From Planococcus lenghuensis (GTDB taxonomy: Bacteria > Bacillota > Bacilli > Bacillales_A > Planococcaceae), in assembly GCF_001999905.1 (NCBI RefSeq), contig NZ_CP019640.1:2584001-2648000 (forward strand): a stretch of 64,000 nt of DNA, written 5' to 3'. The position numbers and the translations under genes are program-made. Numbering within the stretch: position 1 is the first letter of the stretch; each line of letters opens with the position of its first letter. Shown here piece after piece: positions 48,329-53,308 of the stretch. The notes under the pieces were generated by a model. It saw only the letters and a list, made by a program, of their open reading frames with translations, did not search any database and had not been told where the DNA came from.

Positions 48329-49666
48329 TTAGCTGGAGACGGGGGCGGCTAAGAACCCCAAATCCGACAGCGTGCGGATGCCGTAGTTCTTGAGGTTGAG
48401 GGCTGCGTTATGGTCCCAGTCGATCATGGCTTGGCAATGCGCACACGCATACGTCCGTTCAGAAAGCCGCAAGTTCTCTTTTTTTGTGCCGCAGGCGCTG
48501 CACAGTTTACTGGATGGAAAGAAGCGGTCGGCGACGATGTAGTGTTTCCCTTTTCGTTCCGCTTTGTATTTGAGCATATTACGGAACATGCCGAACCCGT
48601 TGTCGTGCAGTTTCTTGCCGAGTTTCAGGCACTGCGCCAGGTTTGACAGGTCGAGGTCTTCCACCACAATCGCATCGTAATCATTGGTTATCTGGTCACT
48701 TTTCTTGTGGAGAAAGTCTTTCCGCTGATTGACGGCCTTCGCCATCGTCTTCTGGTAGTTCTTGAGCGCTTTCTGGTAGTTCTTCGAATCGATCGGATTT
48801 CCGTCTTTATCCTTCGGCGCCCGTTCCTTCTTCCGTGCCAGCGACTTATTCTGCCGCCGCTGCCGTTTCTCGATGAGGCGGTGGAACCGCGGGTATTCCG
48901 CCTTTTGCCCCTCGCTGTCCATGTACAAATCGGATTGGCTGTAGTCCAATGCGGTAATTTTGGATGTGGCGACCTTTTCCACGAGTTGCAGCTTTTCAAA
49001 TGGGTAATCGACGGAAATGGCCACGATGTAGCGGTCACCTTCCCGTTTGATGGTCGCCTTTTTGATCAGGCCATCGGCGGGAAGCGCGCGATGCAGGCGG
49101 ATCGACACACCCTCGGCGAATTTCGGGATGCGCAGGAACGTCACCCCATCCCGTGATTCGATGCGGATGTTCCCGTTCGTCTGATTGGTCGTATAGCTGA
49201 ACCTGCCCTGCTTTTTACTGTGGAACTTCGGCAGGCCTTCGACATCCTGAAGGGATGGCGCATAGCCGTCCGTCATCTTCTGACGAACCGACTTTTTATA
49301 CTGCAGTGGTCGCTTGCCGTATGTCTCGTTGTACTTTTTGATGGCCGCCTGGAAACGGATCTTGGCATCGTTGTACACAAACGAATCAGTCGACCGATCC
49401 AGGAAATCATAGCGCTGGGTGATCGTCGTATAATTCGGAACCTTGTACGCCAGGAATCCGCCTGAGAAGCTGATGGCCTCAAGGTGCTCGTACAGCCCCG
49501 CCACGTATTCGTTATAGATTTTGCGCTCGCAGCCGAACGCCATCTCGAGGCGCTGTTTCTGTTCGTCCGTGGGGAAAATGGCGAAACGGAAGGCACCCGT
49601 CACCCATCCACCAGGCAATTGTTTTTTCGTGCCTTTGATGTGATGTCCGTTTTTGTCTGTCGCCAT
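48329..49666 (-). CDS. tnpB: TnpB RNA-guided nuclease, long subtype
   Basis: A 444-residue TnpB starting with ATG at 49666 behind AAAGGGGGCGG. RuvC residues in this numbering: D241 (ITALDYSQSD), E336 (VVEDLDLSNL) and D418 (IDWDHNAALN); zinc ribbon cysteines 389, 392, 408, 411 (CSAC, CAHC). The ALDYSQSDLYMDSEG version of motif I marks a distinct Bacillales subgroup. All catalytic residues are kept, so it is probably active. The N-terminal (about 20-120) carries the wedge/REC-like part. Confidence 0.88.
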   Translation of the reverse strand: MATDKNGHHIKGTKKQLPGGWVTGAFRFAIFPTDEQKQRLEMAFGCERKIYNEYVAGLYEHLEAISFSGGFLAYKVPNYTTITQRYDFLDRSTDSFVYNDAKIRFQAAIKKYNETYGKRPLQYKKSVRQKMTDGYAPSLQDVEGLPKFHSKKQGRFSYTTNQTNGNIRIESRDGVTFLRIPKFAEGVSIRLHRALPADGLIKKATIKREGDRYIVAISVDYPFEKLQLVEKVATSKITALDYSQSDLYMDSEGQKAEYPRFHRLIEKRQRRQNKSLARKKERAPKDKDGNPIDSKNYQKALKNYQKTMAKAVNQRKDFLHKKSDQITNDYDAIVVEDLDLSNLAQCLKLGKKLHDNGFGMFRNMLKYKAERKGKHYIVADRFFPSSKLCSACGTKKENLRLSERTYACAHCQAMIDWDHNAALNLKNYGIRTLSDLGFLAAPVSS

Positions 49667-49761
49667 GCCGCCGCCCCCTTTTCCCATTCGTCACAGGTGT
49701 GCCGGAACATGTGTTCTGTTAGTTTAAGTATACACGTCCGCCAAGCGAAAAGAAAACAAAA

Positions 49762-51011: not shown

Positions 51012-51196
51012 TCTATTGCCTCCTTGTAATCACGTCTTATCTTCTATATTACCCGGACAGCATACCGGGAAACGTAGCTTGACCGACAAGATCTCCTGTC
51101 CGCTTTCCAGCCCTCCGATGAGTCCCCAATTCTTCTATTTTAAAGATGCCAATGGTAAACTAAAGGTACTTTTTATGAATCGAGGAGGAATTCCGG

Positions 51197-51502
51197 TTGT
51201 TTATTGTGACATCGACGGTGACTGTTCCACCGGGGAAATCCGGGGAAGTCATCGATATATACAGAAACCGCTCGCGCCGGGTTGATCGTGCTGACGGCTT
51301 CCAGTCATTCCGGCTGCTGCAGAATATGAAAAAGCCGGAGGAACTGACTGTGCAATTGGAATGGGAGTCAAAAGCGGCCTACCTTGCATGGGCGCGGAGT
51401 GACGAGTTCAAAGAGATCCATGATCTTGAAAAAAATTACCCGGACCAGGAATTGGCAGGCATCGTGCCGACTGTCCGGCAATACGAGGTTGTGACTGAAT
51501 GA
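51197..51502 (+). CDS. antibiotic-biosynthesis-monooxygenase/heme-degrading HmoB-IsdG-like protein
   Basis: A 101-residue ferredoxin-like protein starting with TTG at 51197 behind GAGGAGG. FIVTSTVTVPPGKSGEVID at the front, a central GFQSFRLLQNM, LTVQLEWESKAAYLAWARSDEFKE with the W and the conserved SxxF pattern, and a YEVV end match the ABM/IsdG/HmoA-B group, which degrade heme or oxidise small molecules. Its stop overlaps the next start (ATGA at 51499). First gene of a four-gene unit with B12- and STAS-domain proteins. Confidence 0.82.
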   Translation: MFIVTSTVTVPPGKSGEVIDIYRNRSRRVDRADGFQSFRLLQNMKKPEELTVQLEWESKAAYLAWARSDEFKEIHDLEKNYPDQELAGIVPTVRQYEVVTE

Positions 51503-51852
51503 ACGCAGCAGTAAAAGAGCAAATCGCCGATCAAGTGACCGCCGGCATTTATGAAGCCTATCCTGATTTATGGGAACGGTTCGGTGAGCGCGGATATAAG
51601 CATACGAAAGAAGACAATCACCATCACTTGGATCATCTGGAGACCGCCTACGAACTCCGACAGCCCCAGCTGTTTCTGGAGTATACTGACTGGCTTGAGA
51701 CCGTGCTGACAAGCCGAAACGTGGAAACCGGATTAATCATTGATAATTTCGGCCGGCTGATTGATGTAATCCCAGGACAGACAGATCCCGATGAAGAATC
51801 ATTCATGATCAGCTGTCTGCAGGATGCGGTCCGAAAGCTGGAACGGCCATGA
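51499..51852 (+). CDS. all-helical sensor-like protein (RsbRD-N/B12-associated domain type)
   Basis: A 117-residue helical protein. YPDLWERFGERGYKHTKED, HHHLDHLETAYELRQPQLF and YTDWLETVLTSRNVETGLI recall, from memory, the helical domain found in front of B12-binding or STAS domains in other bacteria (RsbRD N-terminal type). Here it is a separate gene, overlapping the genes on both sides. Histidines around 40-46 (NHHHLDH) could bind a metal. It presumably partners the B12-binding protein encoded next. The domain assignment is tentative. Confidence 0.6.
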   Translation: MNAAVKEQIADQVTAGIYEAYPDLWERFGERGYKHTKEDNHHHLDHLETAYELRQPQLFLEYTDWLETVLTSRNVETGLIIDNFGRLIDVIPGQTDPDEESFMISCLQDAVRKLERP

Positions 51853-51869
51853 ACGGAGAGGAGTCATCT

Positions 51870-52529
51870 ATGTTAATTGAGCCAAAAGCGTTGGCCCGGT
51901 TATTCCTTGACGGGGAAGAGACAAAGGCGCTGACAGAAATCCAGGCGTACTTGGCAGAACACTCCAAAAAGGAACTGTATCATGACTTACTGACACCAGC
52001 CATGATTCATATTGGAGAACTTTGGGAACGCAATGAAATCTCGGTTGCCGATGAACATCTGGCGACAGCGATCTGTGATTTTGTCATGTCTGCTGTTGAT
52101 ATCCGGCCCGTTTCACTGCCGTCCGATGGCAGCAAAACAGCCCTCGTGCTCGGCGTTGAAGGCGAACAGCATTACCTTGGACTGAAGATGACCGCATCGC
52201 TTCTGCGGGAGAATGGCTGGAGTGTCCATTATCTGGGACCGGATCTTCCGCTGGATCATGCATTGGCAGCCGCCGAACGCTGGCAGCCGGATGCCATTGG
52301 CTTATCAGCAGCGCTGGCCTACCGGGCGCCTGCTGTCCGCAAATTCGTGGAAGCATTCTTGGAACTTCAGCCGGCCCCCGTCATTTTCATCGGCGGCCGG
52401 GCCGTAAGTGCAGCAGACCTGTCCCACTTGGAACAAGAAGGCGTCCTGCTGTTTGACAATCTGCATCAGCTGGAGCGCTGGATCCGGGAAGAAGGAGGAA
52501 CAGAGCAATATGAAAAATCCGCAATCTGA
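51870..52529 (+). CDS. B12-binding protein with CarH-type photoreceptor motif
   Basis: A 219-residue protein: a helical N-terminal domain (about 1-78, MTR1/CarH cap type) and a Rossmann B12-binding domain (about 85-200). The cap has W52-x9-E62-H63 (LWERNEISVADEH), the Wx9EH pattern that in CarH contacts the upper face of adenosylcobalamin. The lower-ligand motif is E99xH101xxG104 (a DxHxxG variant), followed by LSAALA and FIGGRAV. No DNA-binding domain. ATG at 51870 follows GGAGAGGAG; an ATG at 51849 is weaker. It overlaps the STAS gene by 20 bases. Light or cobalamin sensing is inferred. Confidence 0.82.
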   Translation: MLIEPKALARLFLDGEETKALTEIQAYLAEHSKKELYHDLLTPAMIHIGELWERNEISVADEHLATAICDFVMSAVDIRPVSLPSDGSKTALVLGVEGEQHYLGLKMTASLLRENGWSVHYLGPDLPLDHALAAAERWQPDAIGLSAALAYRAPAVRKFVEAFLELQPAPVIFIGGRAVSAADLSHLEQEGVLLFDNLHQLERWIREEGGTEQYEKSAI

Positions 52530-53256
52530 GGAATGGCCGCTCCCTGTACTGAAAATAACCCGGGATTTCACCATCCAGGACCGGTCATTAGAGGCGGAGA
52601 AAATCCTTGTCCCCGCTGCCTCATTTCTTGATTTACTTGATGAAGACAGCCGGCAAAAGGCAGAAAACCTCCTGCCGAAAGGGCTGCCGGGCAAGGGGAT
52701 TGAACTGAACTTTCTCGGAAGAGGAGAAGAACGGTTTGCTGCTGATGTCCATGTAAACTGGAATGATGAAGAGACCGCTACGCTGGTCATCGTGCCGCAC
52801 GCCGAAAGCCACAGACGCATCGCCGGCCAGTTCACGAGTCTCCGGCAGCGGCTGAACGAGACGAATTACGACCTGCTGCTGGAAAAGATGAAAGTGGATG
52901 AATTGGTGAAACGGGTCCGGGAATTATCAGCTCCGCTCATCCGGCTTGATCGATCGCGCATGCTCATCCCGCTCTTTGGGGATTTGACAGTAGAACAGAT
53001 GGCTGCAGTGCAGGAGAAAGTATTGAGTGATACATACGCATCCGGCGCAACGAAAATCATTCTGGATTTCACCGCTGTCGATCTAATCGATAATTCCGGT
53101 CTCCAGGAATTCAATTCGCTGCTGCAGTCGCTCAGCCTGATGGGCACATCCGTCACGCTGACCGGCCTGCATCCGGATCATGCCCGGCGGCTCAATGAAT
53201 TGGATGTTCACCTGGGCATAACGTATGCTTCCTCGCTTCAGGATATCCTGCAGTAG
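52510..53256 (+). CDS. STAS-domain protein (RsbR-like stressosome component)
   Basis: A 248-residue protein starting at ATG 52510 (GGAGG upstream) inside the B12 gene. Residues 1-115 are a PAS-like or variable sensor part; 118-140 a linker helix; 142-246 a STAS domain. LIRLDRSRMLIPLFGDL and TKIILDFTAVDLIDNSGL match RsbR proteins, with T188 and S196 at positions where RsbR/RsbS and SpoIIAA relatives are phosphorylated. It could bind an RsbT-like kinase. No such kinase is in the window. Terminator at 53272 ends the unit. Confidence 0.8.
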   Translation: MKNPQSEEWPLPVLKITRDFTIQDRSLEAEKILVPAASFLDLLDEDSRQKAENLLPKGLPGKGIELNFLGRGEERFAADVHVNWNDEETATLVIVPHAESHRRIAGQFTSLRQRLNETNYDLLLEKMKVDELVKRVRELSAPLIRLDRSRMLIPLFGDLTVEQMAAVQEKVLSDTYASGATKIILDFTAVDLIDNSGLQEFNSLLQSLSLMGTSVTLTGLHPDHARRLNELDVHLGITYASSLQDILQ

Positions 53257-53271
53257 CAGGGATCGCTATTT

Positions 53272-53308
53272 AAAAAAGCGTGAGACCGGTACCGGTCTCA
53301 CGCTTTTT
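53272..53308. terminator. bidirectional terminator between the STAS gene and glpD
   Basis: Perfect palindrome AAAAAAGCGTGAGACCGGT / ACCGGTCTCACGCTTTTT between the two convergent genes. Confidence 0.9.

Follow-up and report, generated by a model that had tools for sequence, protein, structure and literature searches.

A conserved four-gene unit of bacilli that seems to encode a two-subunit counterpart of photocobilins, with IsdG-like and YtvA-like partners

In a 64,000-nt stretch of the Planococcus lenghuensis genome (assembly GCF_001999905.1, contig NZ_CP019640.1, positions 2,584,001 to 2,648,000 of the forward strand; hereafter the window), four tightly packed genes, here called g1 to g4, appear to encode a two-subunit, photocobilin-like sensor (g2 and g3), a probable enzyme for its chromophore (g1), and an output protein (g4) that would report to the stressosome and SigB, a reading that we regard as fairly probable. 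At its center, g2 and g3 resemble a photocobilin whose modules are divided between two proteins, one a bilin-binding-type globin and the other a CarH-type B12 protein. Since globin and B12 protein are encoded by separate genes here instead of forming one chain, we call the pair "split, photocobilin-like" and reserve the plain name photocobilin for the fused proteins.

The arrangement is strongly conserved. Of 261 genomes of the window's order, 61 contain g3 (E ≤ 1e-30), and in 59 of these g1-g2-g3-g4 follow one another on one strand; the same order was found in all 80 loci from named genomes (80 of 127 relatives kept). Given these counts, the four-gene order is not a product of chance. When starts are picked by script, the overlap of g1 with g2 measures 1 to 22 bases in 58 of the 59 genomes (g1 is broken in the remaining one), and g3 runs into g4 in 61/61. 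An earlier note on this DNA, made from the sequence alone, had described four overlapping or nearly touching plus-strand genes and had proposed a check of their order in relatives; both points held, with the open reading frames lying at 51197-53256, an ATGA at 51499 joining g1 to g2, and the g4 ATG at 52510 giving a 20-base overlap with g3. Its 18-base gap between g2 and g3 needs a small correction. There are two candidate in-frame starts for g3, an ATG at 51849 (ATGA overlap with g2) and an ATG at 51870 behind GGAGAGGAG; the latter is better placed and likelier, and it does leave a short gap, of 17 bases.

Judged by record titles, the unit occurs in Planococcus, Sporosarcina, Halobacillus, Pontibacillus, Thalassobacillus, Oceanobacillus and Virgibacillus, and further in Evansella, Geomicrobium, Marinococcus, Salsuginibacillus, Terribacillus and Alkalihalobacillus. 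Some species are represented both among the 80 named loci and among the 61 order genomes, and the two counts are not additive. The named-genome scan used the g2 profile and a single short motif, [TC]x[EK]DNxHH[LM][DNK], of which Asp39 is part; motif conservation in these loci is thus partly by construction, a bias of which the g3-anchored set and the class search are free. In all, g2 was sought genome-wide in 200 genomes of the family (38 positive) and 398 of the class (59 positive), and in the rest of the order beside g3. Two of the named loci have broken frames (L148 in g1; L205 in g1 and g3). The broken g1 of G057 and the odd g2 and g4 frames of G212 were left out before counting, as were, from the residue rows, matches covering <80% of the profile and the partial g2 of L228 and L229. 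We found no conserved fifth gene: the largest neighbor cluster, which by eye has the look of the ABC-ATPase superfamily and lies on either side and strand, is present in 29/80 loci, and the next ones are limited to a few genera. Phage or plasmid cargo was rejected, g3 having no phage match and g2 matching six Azospirillum plasmid records at 26.6-28.4% identity.

The g3 protein (226 amino acids) matches the Pfam domains B12-binding (2.5e-15) and B12-binding_2 (1.2e-14), and its profile, run against the PDB, retrieves photocobilin 8j2w/8j2x best (5.6e-27) with CarH behind. The Wx9EH and ExHxxG motifs that the earlier note had read in g3 are indeed there, as W59-x9-E69-H70 and E106-x-H108-x-x-G111, and W59, E69, H70, E106, H108 and G111 are all kept in 105/105 distinct rows. 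In agreement with the same note, domain searches gave B12 domains only and no MerR-type DNA-binding domain. We ruled out that g3 is a CarH regulator or a corrinoid methyltransferase subunit, as its NCBIfam scores are far under the cutoff (the CarH model, with its cutoff at 400 bits, gives 75 bits and E 5.6e-21). The host genome (4.15 Mb, 4 contigs) encodes two PF01923 adenosyltransferases.

By its sequence profiles, with which the predicted fold agrees, g2 is a bilin-binding-type globin. The window protein itself has no Pfam match. A profile of 28 g2 orthologues (A1), run against all PDB sequences, ranked photocobilin globin domains first (8j2x and 8j2w at 0.0043, 8j2y at 0.045), with phycocyanin alpha next at 0.29 and then an unrelated chain at 0.52; a broader profile (A5, 29 rows) retrieved 8j2x at 3.1e-5, phycocyanin alpha 2vjr at 5.1e-4 and 8j2y at 5.5e-4. 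As the profiles rank photocobilin and phycocyanin first, we ruled out a generic helical protein or an RsbR-type globin. The g2 model, with a predicted local distance difference test score (pLDDT) of 96.3, was matched by VIA to allophycocyanin B (4po5_A; Z 14.9, root-mean-square deviation [rmsd] 2.1, 117 aligned) and to photocobilin (8j2w_B; Z 14.2, rmsd 2.1, 113 aligned), and the 50 rows of matches listed consist of phycobiliproteins, fluorescent-protein relatives and 8j2w/8j2x. Pfam matches over the 28 g2 members were weak and scattered, namely Phycobilisome in 6/28 (best 0.0029), LPD22 in 5/28 (best 5.4e-5) and DUF1858 in 1/28 (4.2e-4), and are not used as evidence.

The residues that hold the chromophore in photocobilins are kept as well. 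In SasPcob, Asp270 and Trp296 are described as the biliverdin contacts, while AbPcob, in which His replaces the Asp, is described as binding biliverdin poorly (PMC10979010). In our alignment (SasPcob chain indices run 6 below the published numbering, His108 being index 102), Asp270 and Trp296 fall on g2 Asp39 and Trp65, which are invariant in 58/58 distinct g3-anchored rows and in 24/24 class-search rows. Another informative site is position 36, which aligns with the Cys of the phycocyanin CARD stretch; in CXRD motifs of this kind, the Cys is given as the bilin-holding residue (PMC10151467). The window protein has Thr36 here. A Cys is found in 9/58 g3-anchored rows and 17/24 class-search rows, which suggests covalent bilin attachment in Cys-bearing Bacilli g2. 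This Cys, mostly within KC..D, was seen in loci L116-L120, L122-L128 and L220-L223.

Fused relatives also count in favor of this reading of g2 and g3. In another Bacilli family, the g2 match lies within a long open frame in 22 genomes, and in 4/4 of the loci opened g2 and g3 form one chain. Directly upstream of the fusion, g1 is present in L226; none was seen for the other three. The fusion is followed by a hybrid histidine kinase at L224:5703-8504 (by Pfam) and, by eye, at L225:6041-8825 and L226:5402-8586; none was seen for L227.

The ABM domain of g1 is clear from Pfam (1.1e-17), and its profile retrieves from the PDB the haem-degrading monooxygenase 8avh (1.4e-9), TT1380 (1iuj; 1.8e-8) and then IsdI/IsdG. 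What ties it to the globin is genome content. That is, g1 is present in 59/261 genomes (E ≤ 1e-15), exactly those with g2 beside g3, and 38/38 genomes with g2 in the family search also have g1. Conversely, two genomes (G001 and G053) keep g3 and g4 and have both g1 and g2 missing from the site; set against a sister genome, the flanks align on both sides and ∼0.6 kb is gone where g1 and g2 lie, and at the same threshold g1 is absent from the whole of either genome. In the class search, g1 stands beside g2 in 19/24 loci. Because g1 tracks g2 in both presence and absence, we consider it likely that g1 makes or handles the bilin of g2. Some class-search loci have g1-g2 with g3 kilobases off or not seen.

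On the output side, g4 matches the Pfam STAS domain (2.8e-11), and the top PDB match of its profile, which spans linker and STAS, is YtvA (2mwg, 4.2e-19), with RsbR chains after it. In the g4 model, a part of PAS-like topology leads through a long helix (99-139) to a STAS domain, the N-terminal sensor, linker helix and C-terminal STAS layout of RsbR and YtvA, and the best Foldseek match of the model is full-length YtvA (2.1e-11 over 258 columns). Together with the g3 results, these searches place both the B12-binding and the STAS domains that the earlier note had predicted. By eye, the PAS-like domain has no obvious LOV sequence, and no LOV motif was seen in nine other STAS loci of the host genome (five by pattern, four by eye). 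That genome has an rsbR-rsbS-rsbT-rsbU-rsbV-rsbW-sigB run at C1:504-509 kb (from family matches, rsbU by eye; gene names inferred from order), and RsbT is present in 61/61 g3-bearing genomes. The YtvA kinship of g4 and the rsb-sigB run make a stressosome output of the unit plausible. At L218:5190-7668, g1-g2-g3 without g4 have as neighbor a STAS gene of RsbR type, with DT and AQT where the phospho-threonines would fall, a second STAS link. Elsewhere in the host genome, L257 (G000:C1:3093882-3094193) encodes a STAS protein whose long N-terminal region has by eye a V4R-type sensor look and which looks like another unusual RsbR paralogue.

From gene order, homology, conserved ligand residues, the joint absence of g1 and g2, the fused relatives and the sigB module, we infer cofactor identity and loading, light response, g1 reaction, g2-g3-g4 contacts and stressosome output of the unit as follows. 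The g1 protein would make a bilin from haem, or hand it over, for g2. The g2 globin would hold this linear tetrapyrrole, sit against g3, and add red absorption like the fused SasPcob globin. For its part, g3 would load adenosylcobalamin, and light would break the Co-C bond and bring about a state change, as in CarH and photocobilins; light caught by either chromophore would change the state of g3, and in photocobilins biliverdin is described as letting red light drive B12 photochemistry (PMC11796333). The g2-g3 state would be read by g4, probably via its PAS domain and linker helix, and passed on to the RsbS/RsbT core, where altered RsbT release from the stressosome would act on SigB.

Several observations weigh against this reading and concern g2, g1 and g4 in turn. 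The best Foldseek match of the g2 model reached only 0.013, short of E ≤ 0.001 (ordinary haem globins come lower in the list), and unrelated helical folds can score Z near 13; for both reasons the identity of g2 rests on the profile result rather than on the fold.

For g1, the difficulty is chemical. IsdG has an Asn-Trp-His catalytic triad, of which Asn7 is described as critical (PMC6018153); the g1 triad reads Ser-Trp-His, with Ser6 standing for the catalytic Asn in 90/91 rows. In addition, IsdG enzymes are described as yielding staphylobilin, not biliverdin (PMC9393634), and g2 lacks an adjacent g1 in 5/24 class-search loci, including three of the four fused ones. Given the Ser and the staphylobilin products, we treat the bilin chemistry of g1 as putative and g1 itself as a putative, not a proven, member of the IsdG type. 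Both the Ser and the loci without a neighboring g1 would fit the alternative that g1 is no chromophore-maker at all but a dead or repurposed ABM protein (a haem or bilin carrier, or a partner subunit), the bilin coming from another haem-degrading enzyme. However, Trp65 and His75, which in IsdG serve in haem ruffling and as axial ligand, are invariant in 91/91 rows, g1 follows g2 across 59 genomes and is lost together with it, and the host genome has no match to the canonical haem oxygenase family PF01126 (other haem-degrading families were not searched). We think this alternative rather unlikely, and keep g1 as a likely maker or handler of the g2 bilin.

For g4, the model is only moderate (pLDDT 78, predicted template modeling score 0.42), and at the g4 positions that we take to align with RsbRA T171 and T205, a Thr is found in 2/60 and 0/60 g3-anchored rows. 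The "RsbR-like residues" of the earlier note thus stand as far as the STAS domain is RsbR/YtvA-like, but not for the threonine positions phosphorylated by RsbT, which are rarely Thr or Ser; its broader proposal of a B12-based light sensor with split subunits and a STAS switch fits the evidence, although it had missed the globin nature of g2 and g4 mostly lacks the phospho-threonines. YtvA, too, is non-Thr at both positions in the g4 profile alignment. Judged by these residues, g4 is not an ordinary RsbR. RsbT is present in 251/261 genomes of the order regardless of g3 and so discriminates little; being this widespread, its co-occurrence was dropped as proof of the g4 output. A SigB-like promoter upstream of g1 was found in 0/101 cases (0.4 in single-base shuffles), and SigA-like promoters in 8, against 9.4 in shuffles; SigB autoregulation of the unit was thereby ruled out.

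Some relatives, moreover, have other outputs or none adjacent to the sensor genes. At L210:5506-9862 and L221:5433-9714, g1-g2 are followed by an ∼1200-amino-acid CheB-CheR-PAS-histidine-kinase fusion; close by on the opposite strand lie g3 and a gene resembling g4, matched in the PAS part only. Such neighborhoods, along with the hybrid histidine kinase of L224 and the mostly absent phospho-threonines, would fit an alternative in which the sensor is as described but g4 works outside the stressosome, directly on another kinase or enzyme. Nevertheless, YtvA, the closest g4 relative, is described as a stressosome-associated member of the RsbR family (PMC3944199), RsbT accompanies g3 in every g3-bearing genome, and in L218 an RsbR-type gene lies beside g1-g2-g3. 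We judge an output outside the stressosome unlikely.

Least favored is that the same proteins take redox, oxygen, haem or corrinoid status as their input, g1 and g2 reporting on haem or bilin and g3 on cobalamin; g1 is from a haem-handling family, g2 and g3 would hold two redox-active tetrapyrroles, and g4 has a PAS-like domain without an obvious LOV sequence, but the CarH/photocobilin residues, among them the Trp and the Glu-His that surround the adenosyl group, are kept in all 105 g3 rows and the closest solved homologue of g2 as well as of g3 is a demonstrated photoreceptor, which makes this input improbable.

Returning to light as the input, we tentatively propose a more specific version. 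The Ser-for-Asn IsdG-type monooxygenase may be a dedicated pigment-maker, its product may be a bilin other than biliverdin that is held covalently in the Cys-bearing lineages, and the YtvA-like adaptor may lead to the SigB stressosome, such that nonphototrophic Bacilli would read green or red light as stress.

The features of the locus are collected in Table 1. The terminator-like hairpin is singled out by its 16-pair stem past the last stop codon, since by count such sites in the region do not stand out (1 found, 2.4 expected in shuffles). Near the four-gene unit, the window also encodes a 452-amino-acid TnpB (IS200/IS605-type RNA-guided nuclease) at 48329-49687 on the minus strand.

Table 1. 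Features of the four-gene locus (window positions)
Feature	Position	Strand	Basis
Shine-Dalgarno-like GAGGAGGA	51182..51189	+	5′ of the g1 TTG start, read directly
g1, 101-amino-acid ABM / IsdG-like, haem-monooxygenase-like protein	51197..51502	+	Pfam, profile against PDB, co-occurrence with g2
g2, 117-amino-acid stand-alone globin, putatively of bilin-binding type (photoglobin/BBAG-2/phycobiliprotein superfamily)	51499..51852	+	Sequence profiles and model fold
g3, CarH/photocobilin-type B12-binding protein, 226 amino acids	51849..52529	+	Pfam, PDB profile match, conserved residues
g4, PAS-like domain, long linker helix and STAS (YtvA-like)	52510..53256	+	PDB profile match and model
Intrinsic-terminator-like hairpin, 16-pair stem	53273..53308	+	Just past the g4 stop, before a convergent glpD-like gene

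Common to many bacilli, the unit is a candidate route from colored light to the bacterial stress response. The inputs of RsbR paralogues are described as an open question apart from the blue-light-responsive YtvA (PMC9237128), and the unit names a concrete candidate for such an input (bilin plus B12, green and red light) whose parts lie in one operon of culturable bacteria. Similarly, a review calls the role of bilins in bacteria largely unknown (PMC6018153), a question on which the tight tie between an IsdG-like protein and a bilin-binding-type globin bears. The split subunits could also serve as a dual-color optogenetic switch.

Among known systems, the photocobilins (SasPcob, 8J2W/8J2X; AbDPcob, 8J2Y; PMC10979010) have the same CarH-type B12 and bilin-globin modules with the same key residues, and are the nearest solved homologues of g3 and, by sequence, of g2. 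The published photocobilins are fused proteins, and for Saccharothrix a STAS/SpoIIE link is predicted (PMC10979010); here, in contrast, globin and B12 protein have separate genes within a fixed operon that also encodes an ABM protein and a PAS-STAS protein, and where phycobiliproteins attach their bilin many g2 of Bacilli have a Cys, a residue photocobilins are said to lack (PMC10979010). A stand-alone biliverdin-binding globin adjoining a separate B12 protein, like g2 and g3, is described for the BBAG-2 globins of Myxococcales and of pre-2 clusters, in genomes with haem oxygenase (PMC10151467). Pre-2 clusters are described with a bilin reductase, some with haem oxygenase, whereas in the unit here the globin is accompanied by an IsdG-like protein and, for output, by a STAS protein. 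The CXRD motif is said to be missing from BBAG-2 (PMC10151467), while 17/24 g2 rows of the class search carry a Cys where that motif has its own. That paper makes no mention of Firmicutes or Bacillus, and the SignatureFinder text contains neither STAS nor Bacill (PMC11796333). Among the papers listed in literature searches, none, judging by its entry there, describes the four-gene operon. The photoglobin paper may already list B12/STAS neighbors of photoglobins.

The remaining comparisons concern single proteins. YtvA, the LOV-STAS blue-light receptor of the B. subtilis stressosome, is the best g4 match by sequence and by fold, but the g4 sensor domain is not recognizably LOV, and g2-g3 would do the light sensing in trans. 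CarH B12 photoreceptors have the Wx9EH and ExHxxG motifs in common with g3, which differs in having no DNA-binding domain, a partner globin and, probably, a protein-protein output. The IsdG-type haem monooxygenases are of the same fold family as g1 and keep the axial His and the Trp, whereas g1 has Ser for the catalytic Asn and is tied to a photoreceptor-type globin. Phycobiliproteins have the helical globin fold seen in g2, with the CXRD-type Cys absent from the window protein. The split globin-B12 pair itself is already known from Myxococcales, and its IsdG-like and STAS partners look new. What seems new about the unit is an ABM partner that goes with the globin, an output protein like YtvA, and a Cys specific to some lineages.

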